NCBI GenBank assembly: GCA_021781455.1
Contig: JAJXWV010000041.1
Coordinates: forward strand, 1-64,000
DNA length: 64,000 nt
Source of the DNA: Acidobacteriota bacterium
Lineage (GTDB): Bacteria; Acidobacteriota; Thermoanaerobaculia; Gp7-AA8
Direction: 5' to 3'
In this document: piece by piece, positions 38,633 to 60,183 of the stretch
Position numbering within the stretch: position 1 is the first letter of the stretch
Layout of the letters: every line of letters begins with the position of its first letter
The notes under the pieces: model-generated
What the model saw: only the letters and a program-made list of their open reading frames with translations
Databases searched by the model: none
Told to the model about the DNA's origin: nothing
Translations under genes and position numbers: made by a program

Positions 38633-40387
38633 ATGCCCATCTTCGACCGCTGGATCCTTCCCGAACCTGCAGCGGATGACGCGCGGGTTCCCGTCGCTCA
38701 CCCCGCGCTCCGCTCGATCCTGATCCGGCGCGGGATCGCCGATGCCGATTCCTATCGCCGCTTCGTCGCGCCTTCGATCGACGACCTGCACGACGGCTCC
38801 TTCATTCACGGCATGGCCTACGCCTGCGAGCGCATCGAGCGCGCCGTGCGGAACCGCGAGCCGATCCTGATCTACGGCGACTACGACGTCGACGGAGTCA
38901 CCTCGATCGTTCTCCTGCAGACGGTCCTCCGTTCCCTCGGTGCGAGCGTCGATTTCGTCGTGCCGCACAGGCTCGTCGACGGCTACGGCCTGAAGATCGA
39001 AGTCCTGGAGCGAGTTCTCGCCGAGAAGAACGTCAAGCTCGTCGTGACCGTCGACTGCGGGATCACCAGCGTCGAACCGGTGCGCCGCGCCATCGATCGC
39101 GGCATCGACGTGATCATCACCGATCACCATCTCCCGCCTGGAGTCCTGCCGGAAGCGGCGGCGGTGCTCAATCCGAAGCAGCCTGGCTGCCAGTATCCGT
39201 TCAAGGAGCTGGCGGGCGTCGGGGTGGCGTTCAAGCTCTGCTGCGAGCTCATACGGCGCAGCGAGAAAAAGATCTCGATCGACTCGCTGCTGAAGATCGC
39301 CGCCATCGGCACCATCGCCGACGTGGCGCCGCTGGTCGGCGAGAACCGCACGATTGCCTGGCTCGGCCTGCGCGGGCTCGCCGACGTCCGCAACCCCGGT
39401 CTTCGTGCGCTGCTGAAGCGCATCGGCATCTACGGCCGGCCGCTGCGCGCCACGGACATCGGTTTCAAGGTCGGCCCGCGGATCAACGCGGCGGGGAGGC
39501 TGGCTTCGGCGAATACGGCCATCGATCTCTTCTCGGCAGCGGACGACGAGGCGGCCTGGAGCGCCTGCGCGGAGCTCGACCGGATGAACGTCGAGCGGCA
39601 GGAGATCGAACGGACGGTGAGGGCGGAAGCGGAGCAGCAGGTCGAGGAGTTGGTCGCGAGGTCGCGAGGTCACGAGGTTACGAGGTCTGTCCCGCCTCGT
39701 GACCTCGCAACCTCGCAACCTCGCAACCGGTTCCCTCGCGTCCTCGTCCTGGCCGGCGAGAACTGGCACCGGGGCGTGGTCGGACTGACCGCCGGACGCA
39801 TGGCTCAGAAGTATCACCGGCCGGCCCTGGTCCTGTCGATCGACGGCGATCACTGCGTCGGATCGGCGAGGAGCATTCCTTCGATCAACCTGCACGGCCA
39901 GCTCGAGCGTGTGGCGGACTTGTTCACCCACTTCGGCGGTCATGAGTTCGCCTGCGGCTTCGCCCTCCCGCGCGCCGCGGTGGATGAGCTCCGCGTCCGC
40001 CTGACGGAGGCGTTCGACCGGATGGACGACGAGCTCTTCGTCAGGACGGCGGCCATCGACGCCGAGCTTTCGCTTGCCGACGTCGGCCGCGAGTTCGCGT
40101 CGTTGCACGAGACGCTCGAGCCGTTCGGGGCCGGCAATCCGCGGCCCCTCTTTTTGACGCGCGGTCTTTCGGCGGCGAGCTCGCGAACGTTTGCAGAGCA
40201 TTGTTGCGAGTTGGTGCTGACAGACGGCAACCGGACGGCAGCGGCGGTGCTGTGGCCCTCGGTCAAAGAGCTTGCAGCCGAGATCGCGGAGTGCGGGAGA
40301 GCCGACGTGGTCTTCCACATCGAGGCCGACGCGTACTCCGCGACGGGCGCGCGCATGAGCGTCGTCGACGCCCGAAAAGCGGAATAG
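38633..40387 (+). CDS. recJ: Single-stranded-DNA exonuclease RecJ, with in-frame repeat insertion
   Basis: The 584-residue 5'-3' exonuclease acts in recombination and mismatch repair. DHH-family motifs are visible: IYGDYDVDGVTSI (motif I), VTVDCGIT, ITDHHLPPG (DHH), ELAGVGVAFKL, IGTIADVAPL; the DHHA1 domain has HRGVVGLTAGRMAQ, GSARSIPSINL and HFGGHEFACGFAL; and the OB-like C-terminus has LEPFGAGNPRPLF. Residues about 340-366 are encoded by a tandem-unit hairpin (39652-39728) placed just before the RVLVLAGENWHRGVV strand. The start at ATG 38633 lies 17 bp after the long hairpin. Confidence 0.95.
   Translation: MPIFDRWILPEPAADDARVPVAHPALRSILIRRGIADADSYRRFVAPSIDDLHDGSFIHGMAYACERIERAVRNREPILIYGDYDVDGVTSIVLLQTVLRSLGASVDFVVPHRLVDGYGLKIEVLERVLAEKNVKLVVTVDCGITSVEPVRRAIDRGIDVIITDHHLPPGVLPEAAAVLNPKQPGCQYPFKELAGVGVAFKLCCELIRRSEKKISIDSLLKIAAIGTIADVAPLVGENRTIAWLGLRGLADVRNPGLRALLKRIGIYGRPLRATDIGFKVGPRINAAGRLASANTAIDLFSAADDEAAWSACAELDRMNVERQEIERTVRAEAEQQVEELVARSRGHEVTRSVPPRDLATSQPRNRFPRVLVLAGENWHRGVVGLTAGRMAQKYHRPALVLSIDGDHCVGSARSIPSINLHGQLERVADLFTHFGGHEFACGFALPRAAVDELRVRLTEAFDRMDDELFVRTAAIDAELSLADVGREFASLHETLEPFGAGNPRPLFLTRGLSAASSRTFAEHCCELVLTDGNRTAAAVLWPSVKELAAEIAECGRADVVFHIEADAYSATGARMSVVDARKAE
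39652..39728. repeat. Tandem-unit hairpin inside recJ (GCGAGGTCGCGAGGTCACGAGG type)
   Basis: The left arm (39652-39687) repeats TCGCGAGG/TCACGAGG units. The right arm (39694-39728) repeats CCTCGCAACCTCGCAACC. It uses the same unit as the intergenic hairpins at 10505-10587 and 53279-53384, but here it is in frame and translated. Confidence 0.9.
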
Positions 40388-40478: not shown

Positions 40479-42431
40479 ATGCAACGAACGATCAAGATCC
40501 TGCGCGTCGCGCTGCCGATCGCTTTCTTCGCGTTCGTGCTCGTGATCGTGCTCAGCTGGACCCGGACGCGCACCGCGCGGGACCGCACCGCGACCGAACC
40601 GGTCGTGGTCACGCGCACCGGCGAGAAGCCGCAGCTCGAGTCGAAGCTCTTCGAAGACACGCAGACGATTGCCGGCCGGGTGGTTTCGCGGATCAAGGCT
40701 CGCCGCGTGGTGGCCTATTCGTCGAACTGGAACACGCTCGAGGACGTCCAGCTGACCATCTACCGGCCTAACGGGCTGACCTACGAGCTGGTCTGCCCGC
40801 AGGCGCAATTCAACAGCGAGACGAAGGAGGCGGACGCCAAGGGCGGTGTCCACGTCACCTCCAGCGACGGCGTGGAGATCCAGACTGCACAGATTCACTT
40901 CGACGGCAACCGGCTCACCAACCGCATTCCGGTGCAGTTCAGGATCGACCGCTGGACCGGCAACGGCGGCGCGCTCGACCTCGACGTGCAGGCCGAGACC
41001 CTGCGGCTGTTCGAGAATCTCGAGGCCACCATGGTTCCGGAACAGGCTGGCGAGGAGCCGATCACCATCAAGAGCGCGGATGGGGTCTTCCAGCGCAAGA
41101 CCAACGACGTCACCTTCACCCAGAACGTGCAGATGACCCGCGGCGCCGACAAGCTCACCGGCGACCGCATCTTCGGCCGCTTCACGCAGGACAGGCGCAG
41201 GCTGACGGATCTCCAGGGAAACGGCCACGTCTTCATGTCGATGTCCAGCAACGTCTCTGCCGGCGAGAACCTCGGGGGCCGGAAGGACATCACCTGCGAC
41301 CGCTTCTACAGTGAGGTCACGCCCGACGGACAGATCACCGCCATCGACGCCGTGGGCGATACCGCGCTCGCGCACGCCGTTCTCGACGGGCCTCCGAAGC
41401 GCGACATCGTCGCCAAGAGCTTCCGCGTCGCTCTGGCCGGCAGAGCAGTGACCGAGATGAAGGCCGAGTGGCAGGTGGTGATGAAAGAGCTCGGACCGGT
41501 GCAGCGGACGATCATTGCCGATCACGTCACGGTCAGCTTCGACCCGCAGCAGCACAAGGCCACCGCGGCCTTCCTGGAAGGGAACGTCAAGTACACCGAC
41601 CCGAAGAACCAGGCTACGGCGATTCGAGCGAATTACGACATCGCCGGAGATCGCGTGTTGCTGACGGCACAGCCGGGATTCGACCCCACGGTCGTTTCCG
41701 AGGGAAACATCCTGAAGGCGAAACAGATCGAGTTCTCGCCGCGGGCAGGGACGGCAAGAGCGGTTGGAAGCGTGATCGCCCAGCTGACCTCCAAACAGAA
41801 CGGGCCGGCTGCCGACTCCACGAACATCTTCCCCGTCAACAAGCCGGTGTTCGTCAACTCGGATGTGCTGACCATGCGTCAGGCGAACAAGGTGGCGGTG
41901 TTCAGCGGAAACGTCAGGGCCTGGCAGGACACCAACACGCTGTTCGCGCAGGAGCTGCAGGTTCAGGGCGCAGGAGACTCGATCACCGCGCGCGGCAATG
42001 TGCGGACGGTCTTGTACAACACCTCGGAAGGACAGCGAAAGACGCCGGTGACGTCGAAGAGCGACCAGTTGCTGGCGCGCAAGAACGACCGCCGGGTGGA
42101 CCTCCTCGGCAACGTGCAGATCGACGACGAGGATCGGACCATGTCGTCCGATCACGCCGTGTTCCTGTTCGATGCGGCCAGGAAGCTCGACCGGGTCGAC
42201 TCCGAGAAGCACGTGATCCTCACCGAGGCGGCGACCCAGCGGAAGGCCACCGGCGATCGCGCGGTCTACCAGGTCAAAACGCGCATGATCTACCTCATGG
42301 GCAGCCCGGCCACGCTCAACGCGCCGACCGGCAACGTGGCCGGCCAGCAGATCACCTTCGACATCAAGCGGAACAAGGTCGACGTGACCGGCCCGACGAC
42401 GCCGACGCACGGGACGTACAAGCCGGAATGA
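40479..42431 (+). CDS. LPS transport protein: LptC-like anchor fused to LptA/OstA repeats
   Basis: The 650-residue protein has one N-terminal membrane anchor (about 8-27) and a long periplasmic body of beta-strands. The first ~180 residues resemble LptC (YSSNWNTLEDVQLTIYRPNG, EADAKGGVHVTSSDGVEIQT). The rest contains two or more OstA/LptA-like stretches, for example NDVTFTQNVQMTRGADKLTG, VAVFSGNVRAWQDTNTLFAQ and DDEDRTMSSDHAVFLFD. LptC hands LPS to the LptA bridge, so one chain may cover both tasks. The frame opens at 40398, but ATG 40479 gives a clean membrane anchor. lptB and rpoN follow, as in the common lptC-lptA-lptB-rpoN order. Domain limits are by eye. Confidence 0.85.
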   Translation: MQRTIKILRVALPIAFFAFVLVIVLSWTRTRTARDRTATEPVVVTRTGEKPQLESKLFEDTQTIAGRVVSRIKARRVVAYSSNWNTLEDVQLTIYRPNGLTYELVCPQAQFNSETKEADAKGGVHVTSSDGVEIQTAQIHFDGNRLTNRIPVQFRIDRWTGNGGALDLDVQAETLRLFENLEATMVPEQAGEEPITIKSADGVFQRKTNDVTFTQNVQMTRGADKLTGDRIFGRFTQDRRRLTDLQGNGHVFMSMSSNVSAGENLGGRKDITCDRFYSEVTPDGQITAIDAVGDTALAHAVLDGPPKRDIVAKSFRVALAGRAVTEMKAEWQVVMKELGPVQRTIIADHVTVSFDPQQHKATAAFLEGNVKYTDPKNQATAIRANYDIAGDRVLLTAQPGFDPTVVSEGNILKAKQIEFSPRAGTARAVGSVIAQLTSKQNGPAADSTNIFPVNKPVFVNSDVLTMRQANKVAVFSGNVRAWQDTNTLFAQELQVQGAGDSITARGNVRTVLYNTSEGQRKTPVTSKSDQLLARKNDRRVDLLGNVQIDDEDRTMSSDHAVFLFDAARKLDRVDSEKHVILTEAATQRKATGDRAVYQVKTRMIYLMGSPATLNAPTGNVAGQQITFDIKRNKVDVTGPTTPTHGTYKPE

Positions 42432-42436
42432 CCGCG

Positions 42437-42607
42437 CCCCGTCACTCTGAGCCGGCGGAGCCGCGTGGGAGAAAGGGCGGGTGGAGCGGCGCAGCGCGGC
42501 GAAGAGTCTCAAACCTGCCGATCGTCCCGGTAAGAGACTCTTCGCCGCGCTCCACCGCTCCCGCCCATCCACCGGCCCCGCGGTTCCGCCGGCTCAGAGT
42601 GACGGGG
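42437..42607. repeat. Large palindromic intergenic repeat, copy 3
   Basis: This is the most complete copy. Outer arms GCCCCGTCACTCTGAGCCGG (from 42437) and the inverted CCGGCTCAGAGTGACGGGG (to 42607) are perfect. Inner arms GTGGAGCGGCGCAGCGCGGC and GAAGAGTCTC pair with GAGACTCTTC and GCCGCGCTCCAC around a ~25-nt loop. It lies between the LptC/LptA fusion gene and lptB, with ~90 bp remaining before lptB. Confidence 0.9.
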
Positions 42608-42696
42608 CGACGTCGCAGAAGTGCCCACCAAGCGCGCCGTGAGTCAAGTCTGGCGCGGCGGCGCAGCGTGAACTACATTCCGCGCAACGAGAGAGC

Positions 42697-43482
42697 ATGA
42701 ACGGAGAAGACCAGCCGACAATCCTGCCATTCGCACCGCCCCACCAGCAGGAGGCGCCGCTGCGGCTGGTGGCCGAAGGTCTGGTGAAGGTTTACAAGGG
42801 GCGGCAGGTCGTTCGAGGAGTCTCGGTCGACATCCGTCAGGGTGAGATCGTCGGACTGCTCGGTCCGAACGGCGCAGGCAAGACGACGACGTTCTACATC
42901 ATCGTCGGCCTGATCCGGCCCGACGGCGGTACGGTGCGTCTCGGCGACGAGGACATCACCGAATTGCCGATGTATCTGCGCGCGCAGCGCGGCATCAGCT
43001 ATCTGCCGCAGGAGCCCTCCGTGTTCCGAAAGCTGACGGTGGAAGAGAACCTGCTCTCGGTCTTCGAGACGATGAACCTCCCGCTGGCGGAGCGCGAACG
43101 GCAGACGCGACAGTTGCTCGAGGAGTTCGGTATTACGCACATCGCGCGTAACCGTGCATACTCGTTGTCGGGTGGTGAGCGCCGGCGTGTGGAAATTGCC
43201 AGAAGCCTGGCAATCAATCCGGCATTCATATTGCTAGATGAGCCGTTTGCAGGAATCGATCCAATCGCTGTGTTTGAGATTCAGCGCATCGTTTCCCAAT
43301 TGCGTTCCCGCGGAATCGGAATTCTCATCACAGACCATAACGTGCGGGAAACGTTGAAGATCACGGATCGGGCCTATATCATCAAAGAAGGTGAGATTTT
43401 CCGACAGGGCGTGCCTGAAAGCCTCTCCGCGGACGCTGAAGTTCGACGAATTTACCTCGGCGAATCCTTCAACCTGAGCTGA
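42697..43482 (+). CDS. lptB: LPS export ABC transporter ATPase LptB
   Basis: The 261-residue cytoplasmic ATPase powers extraction of LPS from the inner membrane by LptFG. It shows Walker [13 protein letters not shown]-loop [18 protein letters not shown], signature [17 protein letters not shown], Walker [17 protein letters not shown] and the switch His in [20 protein letters not shown] and the C-terminal YLGESFNLS are typical of LptB. The N-terminus is ~20 residues longer than E. coli LptB. The last third (from about 43200) uses noticeably more A/T-ending codons than the rest. Confidence 0.96.
43354..43382 (+). promoter_or_regulatory. Possible internal promoter for rpoN
   Basis: TTGAAG (43354-43359) and TATCAT (43377-43382) are 17 nt apart inside the 3' end of lptB. 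Because the bases also encode conserved LptB residues, the match may be accidental. Confidence 0.25.
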
Positions 43483-43513: not shown

Positions 43514-44965
43514 ATGCCACTAGAACAAAAGCTCCACCTCAAACTCTCCCAGAAACTGATCATGACGCCTTCGCTGCAGCAGGCGATCAAGCTGCTGCAG
43601 TTGTCGAAACTCGAGCTCCAGGAAGTGCTCAACCAGGAGCTCCTTGAGAACCCCCTCCTGGAAGAGTCAGCCGAAGAGACCAAGGCCGAAGAAGCCGAGG
43701 CCGAGGCGCAGGAGAAGAACCAGAACGAAGAGGAGCAGAAACCTCAGGAGCCGGAGAAGGAAAAAGAGAAGGATTCGTTCGAAGAGATCGATTACGACGC
43801 CTATTTCCAGGACTACATCGAATACGGCTACAACCCGCGGATGACGGAGGAACACGACGAGTTTCCCATCGAGAACACCCTCACCCGTCCGCCCAACCTC
43901 ACCGACCACCTGACCTGGCAGCTCAACATGAGCGACGCCTCGCCGGACGTGAAGCAGGTCGCCTACTTCATCATCGGCAACATCGACGAGGACGGCTATC
44001 TGCGCGCCACCAGCGAGGAGATCGCCGCGGCCGGACCATGGTCGGCCGAGCTCGTCGAGAAGGCGATCACGGCCATTCAGTCGCTCGATCCCATCGGCGT
44101 AGGTGCCCGCGACCTGCGCGAATGCCTCCTGCTCCAGCTCGATTTCCTGGAGATCGACGTACCCCTCGTCGAGGTGGTCGTCCGCGATCACTGGGACGAG
44201 TTCATGCAGAGAAAATTCGTCCAGCTGGCGAAGACCCTCGGCATCGACATGAAGACGCTGGAGGGGCTCGTGGAGATCATCAAGCACCTCGACCCCAAGC
44301 CCGGCCGGAAGTACTCGGACGAGCGCGCCATCTACGTGGAGCCGGACGTGTACATCCAGAAGGTGGGGGACGAGTACGTGATCGTCCTGAACGAAGACGG
44401 CATGCCCAAGCTGCGCATCAACGGCAGCTATCGGGCCATGCTGAACTCGATGGACTCGAAGCAGGACGGGGAGACGGTCAATTACATCAAAGACAAGATC
44501 CGCTCGGCGGTGTGGCTGATCAAGTCACTCGACCAGCGCCAGCGGACGATCTACAAGGTGGCCGAGTCGATCGTGAAACATCAGCGGGAATTTCTGGAAA
44601 AAGGCATCGACTACCTGCGGCCGCTGGTGTTGCGCGACGTTGCGGACGACATCCAGATGCACGAGTCCACTGTGTCGCGCGTCGTGTCCAACAAGTACAT
44701 GCACACACCGCGCGGGCTCTTCCTGATGAAGTACTTTTTCCACAGCGGGATCGACTCGGACACGGGCGAAGACATCTCCAGCCTGACTGTCAAAAAGAAG
44801 ATCCAGAGCTATATTGATGCCGAAGATCCGCGCAAGCCTCTCTCTGACTCCAAGATCATGAAGATACTCAACGACGAGGGGATCAACATTGCGCGACGCA
44901 CCGTGGCGAAGTACCGCGACGAGCTCAACATCCCGTCGTCGACGGACCGCAAACAGATTTTCTAA
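43514..44965 (+). CDS. rpoN: RNA polymerase sigma-54 factor
   Basis: The 483-residue sigma factor directs transcription that needs enhancer-binding activators. Region I is Gln/Leu-rich (KLHLKLSQKLIMTPSLQQAIKLLQLSKLEL). An acidic Glu/Lys region II spans about 50-95. The core-binding domain (NLTDHLTWQLNMSD, EDGYLRATSEEI), the helix-turn-helix (VADDIQMHESTVSRVVSNKYMHTPRG) and the RpoN box ARRTVAKYRDEL (about 460-471) follow. It is complete. The neighbours lptB (31 bp upstream) and hpf (21 bp downstream) form the classical rpoN locus. No sigma-54 activator is encoded in the window. Confidence 0.98.
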   Translation: MPLEQKLHLKLSQKLIMTPSLQQAIKLLQLSKLELQEVLNQELLENPLLEESAEETKAEEAEAEAQEKNQNEEEQKPQEPEKEKEKDSFEEIDYDAYFQDYIEYGYNPRMTEEHDEFPIENTLTRPPNLTDHLTWQLNMSDASPDVKQVAYFIIGNIDEDGYLRATSEEIAAAGPWSAELVEKAITAIQSLDPIGVGARDLRECLLLQLDFLEIDVPLVEVVVRDHWDEFMQRKFVQLAKTLGIDMKTLEGLVEIIKHLDPKPGRKYSDERAIYVEPDVYIQKVGDEYVIVLNEDGMPKLRINGSYRAMLNSMDSKQDGETVNYIKDKIRSAVWLIKSLDQRQRTIYKVAESIVKHQREFLEKGIDYLRPLVLRDVADDIQMHESTVSRVVSNKYMHTPRGLFLMKYFFHSGIDSDTGEDISSLTVKKKIQSYIDAEDPRKPLSDSKIMKILNDEGINIARRTVAKYRDELNIPSSTDRKQIF

Positions 44966-44986: not shown

Positions 44987-45556
44987 ATGGCAACCGTCAT
45001 CACCGGTCGCAGTTTCGAGGTCACTCCCGACATTCGCACGCTGCTGGAGAAGAAGCTCGGCAAAATCCAGGAGAAGCTCTTCCACGACGTCATCGACATC
45101 CGCGCCGTGCTCCGGGTCGAGAAGTACCGCAACATCTGCGAAGTGAACATGGTCGGCAAGGACCATGACGTGAAGACGGTCCAGCAGTCCGACGAGTCGA
45201 TGCAGGACGCGATCAACCTGGCCATCGACCACCTCAAGCGGCAGGCCCAGAAGAACCGCAAGAAACTGCGAGACCATCACCGCAAGGACGGCAATCACGC
45301 CAAGGAAGAAGTCACCGAGTGGGCGGTGCAGGTGCTGGAGCCGGGAAAGCTGCGCGAAAGCGGCGACCACAACCGGCCCCGCATCATCAAGACCAACAAC
45401 CTGCCGATCCGCCCGATGTCGATCGAGGAAGCAGCTCTGCGTCTGGAGGACTCCAAGAACGAGTTCATCGTCTTCAGAGATGTGGATACCGAAAAGATCT
45501 CGGTCATTTACCGTCGACAGGACAACAACCTGGGACTGATCGCGCCGGAGGTCTGA
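44987..45556 (+). CDS. hpf: Ribosome hibernation promoting factor, long form
   Basis: The 189-residue protein has the N-terminal S30AE domain (about 1-100; ITGRSFEVTPDIRTLLEKKLGKI, SMQDAINLAIDHLKRQAQKNRKK) and the C-terminal dimerisation domain (about 130-185; KPMS-like RPMSIEEAALRLEDSKNEFIVFRD, SVIYRRQDNNLGLIAPEV). Long-form HPF makes 100S ribosome dimers by itself, so no RMF is needed. The linker is charged. The ribosome binding site is a GTGAGG sequence before ATG 44987. Confidence 0.96.
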   Translation: MATVITGRSFEVTPDIRTLLEKKLGKIQEKLFHDVIDIRAVLRVEKYRNICEVNMVGKDHDVKTVQQSDESMQDAINLAIDHLKRQAQKNRKKLRDHHRKDGNHAKEEVTEWAVQVLEPGKLRESGDHNRPRIIKTNNLPIRPMSIEEAALRLEDSKNEFIVFRDVDTEKISVIYRRQDNNLGLIAPEV

Positions 45557-57774: not shown

Positions 57775-60183
57775 ATGAAGATCCTTACTCGATACGTGAT
57801 CAAGGAGATGATCGGGCCGACCCTGCTCGGCTTCCTCTTCTACACCTCGATCATCCTCATGCAGCAGCTCTTCACCTGGGCCGGCATGATCATCAACCGC
57901 TCGCTCTCCGCCGGCACCGTCGGCAAGCTGCTGCTCCTGTCGCTTCCACACATCGTGGTGCTGACCCTCCCGATGTCGCTGCTGTTCGGGATCCTGATCG
58001 CCATCGGCCGGCTGTCGTCCGACTCCGAGATCATCGCCATGCGGGCTCTCGGCATGTCGACGCGGATGATCTACCGCCCCGTCTTCATCGTCAGCGCGGT
58101 CATGTTCGTGCTGAACCTCTACCTCATCAACGTGATCGTTCCGAAGGGCAACAAGGAATTCCAGAGCCTGCGGAACGAGGTGGCGACCTCGTACGTGCAG
58201 AAGGAGGTCAGACCGCGCGTCTTCTTCGACCAGTACCCCGACGTCACCATCTACGTGAACGACGTGAATCCGCACACCGGCGAATGGAAGGGCGTCTTCG
58301 TCGCCGACAGCCGGATCGACGCGAACGAACAGTCCACGCCGCAGAAGGCCGTCGAAGCCGCTGCCCGTGAGCAGCAGGCGTCCGCGATGGGGCTTCCGCA
58401 GCGCACCGGCCAGAAGATCAGCATCGCCGACCGCGGCAGCATCGTCACGATGAAGCCCTCCGGGCAGATCTGGCTGAACCTTTACGGCGCCCAGAATCAC
58501 ATCTGGGATCCACGAAAACCCGACCGCTACGACGTCACGGTCAACGAGATCCAGCGGATCTTCCTGGGCGACAAGCTCTCCGACACCCGCTACACCCCCT
58601 CGCTTCGGGAGATGAACCTGCGTGAGCTCATCCAGCAGGTGCGTATGCTCCGCACGACCACCGACAAGGAGACCTACAACCTTGCCTGGGTCGAGATCCA
58701 CAAGAAGTTCTCGATTCCATTTGCCTGTATCGCGTTCGGAGTCCTCGGTCTGCCTCTTGGAATCACGAACCGGCGTGGCGGTAAAAGTTCAGGTTTTTCT
58801 TTAAGTATCGCAATCATCCTTTTCTACTACGTCGCCATCAACAACGGCGAAACGTTCGCCGCCGAGGGCAAGCTCTCCCCGTTCATCGGCATGTGGGCTG
58901 CGAACATCGTCCTGCTGGCGGTCGGGATCTACCTGCTGGTGCGCGCGAACCGCGACGTCGGTGCGGGACGGGCGGGTCGAGGGGTTGTTCAGCGAATCGT
59001 GCGCCGGGTCGCCAGGGTCTTTCAAACCCGCCGGCAGCGGGAATCGACGGAAGAGGGATCCTCCATTCTCAGCCGGCTGGACATCACCTTCCCGAACATC
59101 ATCGACCGCTATGTCCTCCGCGAGTTCATGAAGGTTCTCGGGCTCGTCCTGATCTCGGTGGCGGCCCTCTTCATCGTCATCGACTACACCGGAAACGCCG
59201 CCGACATCCGCATGAATCACATCCCTTTCCACACCGTGTTTGCGTACTACCGTTTCCTGATCTTCCAGATCCTGAACTGGACGCTGCCGATTTCGGTGCT
59301 GGTGGCGACGCTGGTCACGTTCGGAATGCTGTCGAAGAACAACGAGGTGACGGCCATCAAGTCGAGCGGCGTTTCTCTCTTCCGCATTGCCACTCCCATC
59401 GTGGCCATCGCCGTGATGATCGGAGTGCTCTCATACCTGCTCCTCGACTTTGTCCTTCCCTACTCGAACCAGAGGGTCGATTCGCTGCACACGGTCATCA
59501 AGAAGGGGAAGGCCGCCGCCGCCGCGTCCGCGAACCAGCAGCGGCTGTGGATGGTCGGCAAAGGCCGCTACCTGATCAACTTCCTCAACTACGACCGGGA
59601 ATTGAACGAGCTCAGTCAGGTACAGATCTTCGAGCTGCATCCGACCGAGTTCCGTCTGACGAGGCGCGTCTACGCGCAGCGGGCTCGATGGAACGGCCAC
59701 GCCTGGGTGTTCGAAAACGGCTGGATCCGCTCCTTCAACGACAAGGGAGAGATCCTGGCTGAAACGCCGATTACCACGCCCCTCGCGCTGTACTACCGGG
59801 AGACGCCGGAAGATTTCGCCACCGAGGTGCGGACGCCGGAGGAAATGACGTTCGCGCAGCTGCGGCGGTACATCGAGACGATCCGGCGGGCCGGCTATTC
59901 GGCCGAGGAGCTCTCGGTCAAGCTGTGGACGAAGACGTCGTGGCCGGCGCTGAGCGTGGTCATGGCACTGATCGCGCTGCCGTTTGCATTCAAGATCGGG
60001 AAGCGCGGCGCGCTCTACGGGATCGGCATCGCCCTGGTGCTCGGCATCTTCTACTGGATCGTCTTCGCAATCTTCACCAAGTTCGGCGAGGTTGGAAACC
60101 TGCCGCCAATTCTCTCCGCCTGGAGCGCGAACATCCTTTTTGCGATTGCAGCCGTGTATCTGTTTCTCAACGTGGAGACGTAG
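57775..60183 (+). CDS. LPS export permease, LptF and LptG fused in one chain
   Basis: The 802-residue protein contains two full YjgP/YjgQ permeases in tandem. The first (about 1-395) begins ILTRYVIKEMIGPTLLGFLFY, has the large periplasmic beta-jellyroll insert (about 135-300), and ends with three helices (IPFACIAFGVLGLPLGI...). A basic linker (about 396-430) follows. The second starts at about 438 (NIIDRYVLREFMKVLGLVLI), with its own jellyroll and final helices (FAFKIGKRGALYGIGIALVL). LptF and LptG are normally separate proteins that pair with the LptB ATPase. Here the 1:1 ratio is fixed by fusion. A short AT-richer patch lies at about 58755-58815. Confidence 0.93.
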   Translation: MKILTRYVIKEMIGPTLLGFLFYTSIILMQQLFTWAGMIINRSLSAGTVGKLLLLSLPHIVVLTLPMSLLFGILIAIGRLSSDSEIIAMRALGMSTRMIYRPVFIVSAVMFVLNLYLINVIVPKGNKEFQSLRNEVATSYVQKEVRPRVFFDQYPDVTIYVNDVNPHTGEWKGVFVADSRIDANEQSTPQKAVEAAAREQQASAMGLPQRTGQKISIADRGSIVTMKPSGQIWLNLYGAQNHIWDPRKPDRYDVTVNEIQRIFLGDKLSDTRYTPSLREMNLRELIQQVRMLRTTTDKETYNLAWVEIHKKFSIPFACIAFGVLGLPLGITNRRGGKSSGFSLSIAIILFYYVAINNGETFAAEGKLSPFIGMWAANIVLLAVGIYLLVRANRDVGAGRAGRGVVQRIVRRVARVFQTRRQRESTEEGSSILSRLDITFPNIIDRYVLREFMKVLGLVLISVAALFIVIDYTGNAADIRMNHIPFHTVFAYYRFLIFQILNWTLPISVLVATLVTFGMLSKNNEVTAIKSSGVSLFRIATPIVAIAVMIGVLSYLLLDFVLPYSNQRVDSLHTVIKKGKAAAAASANQQRLWMVGKGRYLINFLNYDRELNELSQVQIFELHPTEFRLTRRVYAQRARWNGHAWVFENGWIRSFNDKGEILAETPITTPLALYYRETPEDFATEVRTPEEMTFAQLRRYIETIRRAGYSAEELSVKLWTKTSWPALSVVMALIALPFAFKIGKRGALYGIGIALVLGIFYWIVFAIFTKFGEVGNLPPILSAWSANILFAIAAVYLFLNVET

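Follow-up and report, generated by a model that had tools for sequence, protein, structure and literature searches.

A fused LptC–LptA protein that very probably serves as the periplasmic LPS bridge of an Acidobacteriota bacterium

In Escherichia coli K-12, LptC and LptA are the products of two genes (b3199 and b3200; 191 and 185 residues by translation) that lie downstream of kdsC in the order lptC-lptA-lptB-rpoN-hpf. In the available text of PMC5575297 the E. coli bridge comprises a single LptC, a single LptD and a multimer of LptA whose length is given as unknown; the same text estimates about 16 nm for a machine containing one LptA, compared with 21 nm for the periplasm, and the number of LptA copies per bridge is stated to be unknown in the available portions of both PMC10094684 and PMC5575297. 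In the accessible part of a survey of sigma-54 loci in didermal species, lptABC and hpf are given as the conserved neighbors (PMC3162934). The Lpt clusters of Negativicutes and Halanaerobiales likewise group OstA-domain proteins with LptB, as two separate proteins of about 200 residues that are accompanied, according to the available text of PMC5007114, by a single LptF/G homolog and by no LptD or LptE that was found there. In the Lpt-like system of Borrelia burgdorferi, as far as the accessible text of PMC10353723 describes it, the LptC and LptA parts stand directly before lptB but are separate proteins.

The locus described here lies in a window of 64,000 nucleotides, the whole stretch of DNA that we analyzed, from the genome of an Acidobacteriota bacterium (4.88 Mb in 90 contigs, with completeness rated at 100% by the tool). 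At its center is one open reading frame for a protein that we call LptCA, which was assigned from the reading frame itself, family profiles and structure models:

38633–40387, + strand: recJ (DHH, DHHA1 and RecJ_OB domains), upstream of lptCA; synteny marker
40479–42431, + strand: fused LptC–LptA protein (LptCA), 650 residues plus stop
42697–43482, + strand: lptB, ATPase of the LPS exporter (TIGR04406, 366.6 bits)
43514–44965, + strand: rpoN (three sigma-54 domains); synteny marker
44987–45556, + strand: hpf-like gene (S30AE domains); synteny marker

The gene order of E. coli K-12 is mirrored at this locus, with one reading frame in the place of lptC plus lptA and with recJ instead of kdsC as the upstream neighbor. 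An earlier note on this DNA had placed the gene just before lptB and rpoN, and this holds, as 265 bases separate the lptCA stop from the lptB start at 42697 and rpoN follows at 43514. The start of lptCA is backed by two relatives (L007 and L009), in each of which its own ATG aligns with residue 1. The estimated mass of the protein, from its 650 residues, is about 72 kDa, and its length is well beyond the roughly 190 residues of a stand-alone LptC, as it comprises an LptC part plus LptA-type stretches. In comparison with the Negativicutes and Halanaerobiales clusters, the present genome has one 650-residue fusion together with LptD and LptE.

Two repeat-like features were observed near lptCA. 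Most of the lptCA–lptB gap is occupied by a near-palindrome (window positions 42430–42614) with 86-nt arms that are 79% complementary and a 13-nt loop. Genome-wide there are at least 40 copies of this element of about 170 nt, a number that comes from scoring 40 of 302 initial candidates. The other 39 copies are 87–95% identical in the better orientation, and the element is a dispersed palindromic repeat family. Within the recJ reading frame, at 39650–39730, a near-repeat tract (gaggtcgcgaggt and its complement), seen by eye only, has the appearance of an in-frame repeat insertion.

Within LptCA, the membrane anchor, the LptC domain and four OstA/LptA-type stretches follow one another along the chain:

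40482–40571, + strand: N-terminal membrane helix, residues 2–31, the sole helix listed in the full-length AlphaFold2 model
40533–41027, + strand: LptC domain (PF06835), residues 19–183; modeled fold like LptC 6mit_C over residues 50–197
41067–41237, + strand: OstA/LptA-type stretch 1 (PF03968, 21 bits)
41505–41738, + strand: OstA/LptA-type stretch 2 (PF03968, 21.8 bits); model of residues 265–408 like LptA 2r1a_G
41853–41996, + strand: OstA/LptA-type stretch 3 (PF03968, 30.9 bits); model of residues 374–514 like LptH 4uu4
42057–42374, + strand: OstA/LptA-type stretch 4, near full length (PF03968 positions 3–112, 40.5 bits); model of residues 521–645 like LptA 2r1a_C

The earlier note had proposed an LptC-like, anchored N-terminus, and this is borne out by the helix at residues 2–31 together with two LptC profiles, PF06835 on residues 19–183 (50.8 bits, cut-off 21) and the TIGR04409 equivalog (64.4 bits, cut-off 38). 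In addition, an HMM built from the N-terminal block of our alignment of relatives (A2; 57 rows, comprising 56 fusions and one LptD-like row) matches residues 3–183 of E. coli LptC with an E value of 2.5e-15 against that single target. A proposed equivalence between the near-invariant G161 of LptCA and G153 of E. coli LptC was rejected, as G161 aligns to S158.

After the LptC domain come about 460 residues of LptA/OstA-type jellyroll. PF03968 (LptD_N, LptA/OstA) picks out four stretches at E ≤ 1 and scores 101.6 bits on the whole protein (cut-off 20.4), and OstA_2 scores 29.9 bits (cut-off 21.2); the "at least two" LptA/OstA-like stretches of the earlier note were therefore an undercount. In the genome search each of the four PF03968 places exceeds the Pfam cut-off, the stretches being individually weak (21–41 bits), and when a stricter E ≤ 0.001 per stretch is applied with hmmscan, two PF03968 and three TIGR03002 stretches are kept. 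The LptA equivalog TIGR03002 gives 102.1 bits on the whole protein against a cut-off of 71.7; no single stretch reaches this cut-off in any of 50 genomes, and the whole-protein score is thus a sum over the repeats of LptCA. A PDB sequence search with LptCA gave nothing stronger than weak LptA matches, the best of them at E 0.025, and a plasmid search with the protein returned no match. The locus resembles E. coli LptC and LptA in its position before lptB-rpoN-hpf, in its anchor-plus-jellyroll and LptA folds and in the partners LptB, LptD and LptE; it differs in that E. coli has two genes and an LptA copy number stated to be unknown (available text of PMC10094684), whereas here one gene carries four LptA-type stretches.

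Structure prediction, which the earlier note had proposed as a check, came out in favor of its reading, with jellyrolls of the LptC and LptA types over the length of the protein. The full-length AlphaFold2 model, built from four sequences, has a mean pLDDT of 71.6 and consists of the helix at 2–31 followed by strands; residues 186–530 folded alone, also from a shallow alignment of four sequences, give 77.5, and the lowest-scoring models stand at 41 in one run and 37 in the other. As the sole helix belongs to the LptC part, the protein does not look like a soluble LptA with a signal peptide of its own. With VIA-align, residues 50–197 superimpose on LptC 6mit_C (Z 15.6, 2.3 Å, 142 aligned) and residues 521–645 on LptA 2r1a_C (Z 16.6, 2.3 Å, 122 aligned). 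In the isolated middle part, residues 186–394 match the LptD jellyroll (9a39; Z 13.4, 3.1 Å over 167), residues 265–408 match LptA 2r1a_G (Z 11.6, 2.0 Å, 128 aligned), and residues 374–514 match LptH 4uu4 (Z 10.3, 2.5 Å, 125 aligned). The overlapping registers of these matches in the predicted models are more in keeping with one unbroken jellyroll than with a string of separate beads. Foldseek and VIA-align also list unrelated beta proteins (teneurins, OspA and junctophilin), and because OspA (Z 8.6) and junctophilin (Z 10.7) score close to the weaker LptA/LptH matches, the assignment of the middle part leans on the sequence stretches too.

The full-length model has low confidence at residues 256–268, 440–452 and most of 482–520, segments that could be flexible or processed linkers. 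They could hold a processing site, in which case LptCA would be a precursor that is cut in the periplasm into an ordinary LptC and soluble LptA-like pieces assembling as in E. coli. We consider this distinctly unlikely, since the isolated middle model shows jellyroll matches over residues 186–514 with a single low-confidence loop at 256–268, and since no hydrophobic window with a mean hydropathy of at least 1.6 follows the first helix in any of 54 related frames (the highest value is 1.14 in six repositioned ones), so that no internal signal peptide is apparent. The retention of fused frames over the phylum, detailed below, fits a need for linkage without proving it. We favor a genuine LptC–LptA fusion acting as the LPS bridge of the periplasm, a reading that we hold to be very probable.

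A search for a separate lptA, also suggested in the earlier note, found none with four profiles in this genome, and this outcome too favors the note's reading. PF03968 (E ≤ 10) and TIGR03002 (E ≤ 0.1) retrieve the LptCA frame and LptD only, PF13100 (E ≤ 10) retrieves the LptCA frame only, and the A2 profile (E ≤ 10) retrieves the LptCA frame, LptD (2.1e-5) and a 45-residue frame near a contig start that matches the first 29 positions of the profile at chance level (E 1.33). LptD, on contig C38 (PF04453, 79.4 bits), is accordingly the sole other OstA-type protein found in the genome. LptE (69.3 bits) and LpxC (335.9 bits) are present, and LptF and LptG are themselves fused:

57775–60183, + strand: LptF and LptG in one reading frame of 802 residues, with two LptF_LptG domains (544.2 bits)

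These searches bear on two other readings of the protein. In the first, LptCA is only part of the bridge, which several fusion chains or a divergent separate LptA would complete. Profile searches can miss divergent jellyrolls, and the 45-residue frame is all that they offer in that direction; on the other side stand the lack of any other LptA candidate with the four profiles and the length of the jellyroll, as residues 53–637 amount to about 4.5–4.7 LptA lengths (of 131 or 125 residues each), more than the one-LptA E. coli machine of the available text of PMC5575297. This reading is unlikely in our judgment, and as the fusion stays in the bridge under it, it overlaps with the favored explanation and the two are not exclusive. 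In the second, LptCA would be a long LptC whose additional jellyrolls carry another lipid or buffer LPS. LPS in this lineage is predicted here from gene content, which leaves some room for such a role, but the stretches are themselves members of the LptA/LptD_N family, LpxC, LptD and LptE are present, and no other protein was found that would link LptC with LptD. Loss of lptA in E. coli leads to a build-up of LPS in the inner membrane. We regard this second reading as very improbable, and the LptC–LptA fusion as bridge protein is retained below.

Fusion frequency was surveyed across Acidobacteriota genomes. Four relatives were found, in MAGs of Thermoanaerobaculia (a class of Acidobacteriota) or Acidobacteria, that are 54–63% identical in the best segment; a masked run breaks up L010, one of the four. 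At E ≤ 0.001, LptC matches occur in 182 and PF03968 matches in 232 of 297 phylum genomes. Among the matches listed, where some frames are LptD and one frame is represented by two rows, 149 of the 150 LptC rows are open frames of at least 548 residues; the remaining one, of 300 residues, comes from G116, where frames of 299 and 474 residues were taken as split. Among the matches listed for PF03968 in the phylum, no frame shorter than 500 residues was seen by eye. Within the class, LptA-profile (TIGR03002) matches at E ≤ 0.1 occur in all 50 genomes, some perhaps via LptD alone, as may be the case in G206 with its one row in a 786-residue frame. LptA-profile frames below 500 residues, counted by eye, make up five rows in three genomes, and each was rejected as a short lptA: those of G305 (168 residues) and G307:C75 (204 residues, two rows) lie at contig ends, and that of G301 (472 residues, two rows) comes after an LptC frame but is out of register with it and was taken as split.

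From the hits we chose, fetched and examined 54 frames, leaving out two at contig ends (L062 and L063), two that are split (L065 and L072) and two short fillers in which the gene is absent (L073 and L088); L054 and L008 come from the same contig, of length 102650. All but one of the 54 were taken as fusions, the exception being LptD-like (L109, from G118), with 105.4 bits to an LptD model, below its cut-off of 683. The 53 fusions are 548–860 residues long (median 688, with starts chosen by rule). In 50 of the 54 an lptB gene is found in the 3 kb that follow, the others being the LptD-like L109 and L071, L086 and L089, which are fusions by Pfam all the same. An N-terminal hydrophobic segment (mean hydropathy of at least 1.6) is present in 52, 46 of them directly and six after repositioning, and the two below this value are L087 (1.43; LptC 71.6 bits) and L109 (1.52). 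At E ≤ 0.001 the members of A2 match PF03968 in 57 of 57 cases and PF06835 in 56, the one row without PF06835 being a fusion, and they match TIGR04409 in 57 and TIGR03002 in 56. Frames of 1000–1350 residues (G052, G119, G160, G262 and others) suggested an LptC–LptA–LptB fusion, which was rejected, as the seven that were fetched (L057–L061, L066 and L067) overlap the upstream recJ frame and have lptB in another reading frame; they were taken as over-long open frames and trimmed to the membrane helix.

These data suggest that, where it is detected in Acidobacteriota, the LptC–LptA fusion is the rule. They also bear on whether adjacent lptC and lptA genes were merely joined by a missed stop or a frameshift in assembly or gene calling. 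Assemblies of the MAG type can carry indels, and G116 and G301 do have split frames; such an error would, however, have to create several LptA stretches and not one, and the recurrence of fused frames in independent genomes (56 aligned, and 149 of the 150 LptC rows among the matches listed) refutes an artefact, to which we assign a negligible probability.

The LptF–LptG arrangement is similarly widespread: LptF_LptG matches occur in 69 of 70 phylum genomes, as a rule as two domains in one frame, and the frames measure 744–987 residues among the matches listed. Three genomes of family f32 (G026, G051 and G063; 99–100% complete by the tool) have no PF03968 match at E ≤ 0.001, and their LptF_LptG matches are weak and broken (best E about 1e-19, in frames of 744–756 residues). 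These three may have lost the LPS bridge or may have a strongly diverged one.

Long single-chain grooves have been proposed to cross the periplasm in the AsmA-like proteins TamB, YhdP and YdbH, which differ from LptCA in family and cargo. For LptCA, we propose that LptB2–LptFG would extract LPS and that the N-terminal helix would anchor the bridge in the inner membrane. The LptC domain is predicted to dock on the extractor and receive LPS, whose lipid chains would slide along a continuous groove formed by about four to five jellyroll units in one covalent chain until the C-terminal LptA-like unit passes it to the N-terminal jellyroll of LptD. As the gene sets how many LptA-like units there are, the LptC–LptA and LptA–LptA assembly steps would fall away, and the joints that remain would be those between extractor and LptC and between LptA and LptD. 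The earlier note had proposed that the bridge is a covalent extension of the inner-membrane complex; this is supported, and the architecture of LptCA implies it. We infer that in the cell the chain remains uncleaved, with joints of the E. coli kind. It also seems somewhat more likely than not that a single LptCA chain crosses the periplasm alone and reaches the outer membrane, as several LptA lengths in one chain should provide enough jellyroll to do so without more copies, by an estimate from residue counts, not coordinates.

We found no description of a natural LptC–LptA or LptF–LptG fusion in the open-licence papers searched. Automatic pipelines probably label LptCA-type proteins as LptC. 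The sequences are therefore not new and the parts are known families, and it is the fusion arrangement that appears to have gone unremarked. Surveys that score gene presence or absence against E. coli references can be misleading in such cases, as lptF and lptG are described as "apparently lacking" in Acidobacteria in the available text of PMC8871954, against the 69 of 70 genomes with matches here. A natural fusion fixes the copy number and order of the LptA-like units, and it supplies a bridge of defined length for purification. More tentatively, with somewhat less than even confidence, we suggest that Acidobacteriota use a fixed-length, single-chain spanning bridge together with an LptFG fusion, which would reduce seven proteins to five polypeptides (LptB, LptFG, LptCA, LptD and LptE), and that the range of 548–860 residues may act as a ruler matched to the width of the periplasm. 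Drugs that break the LptC–LptA or LptA–LptA joints are predicted to have fewer targets in this phylum.
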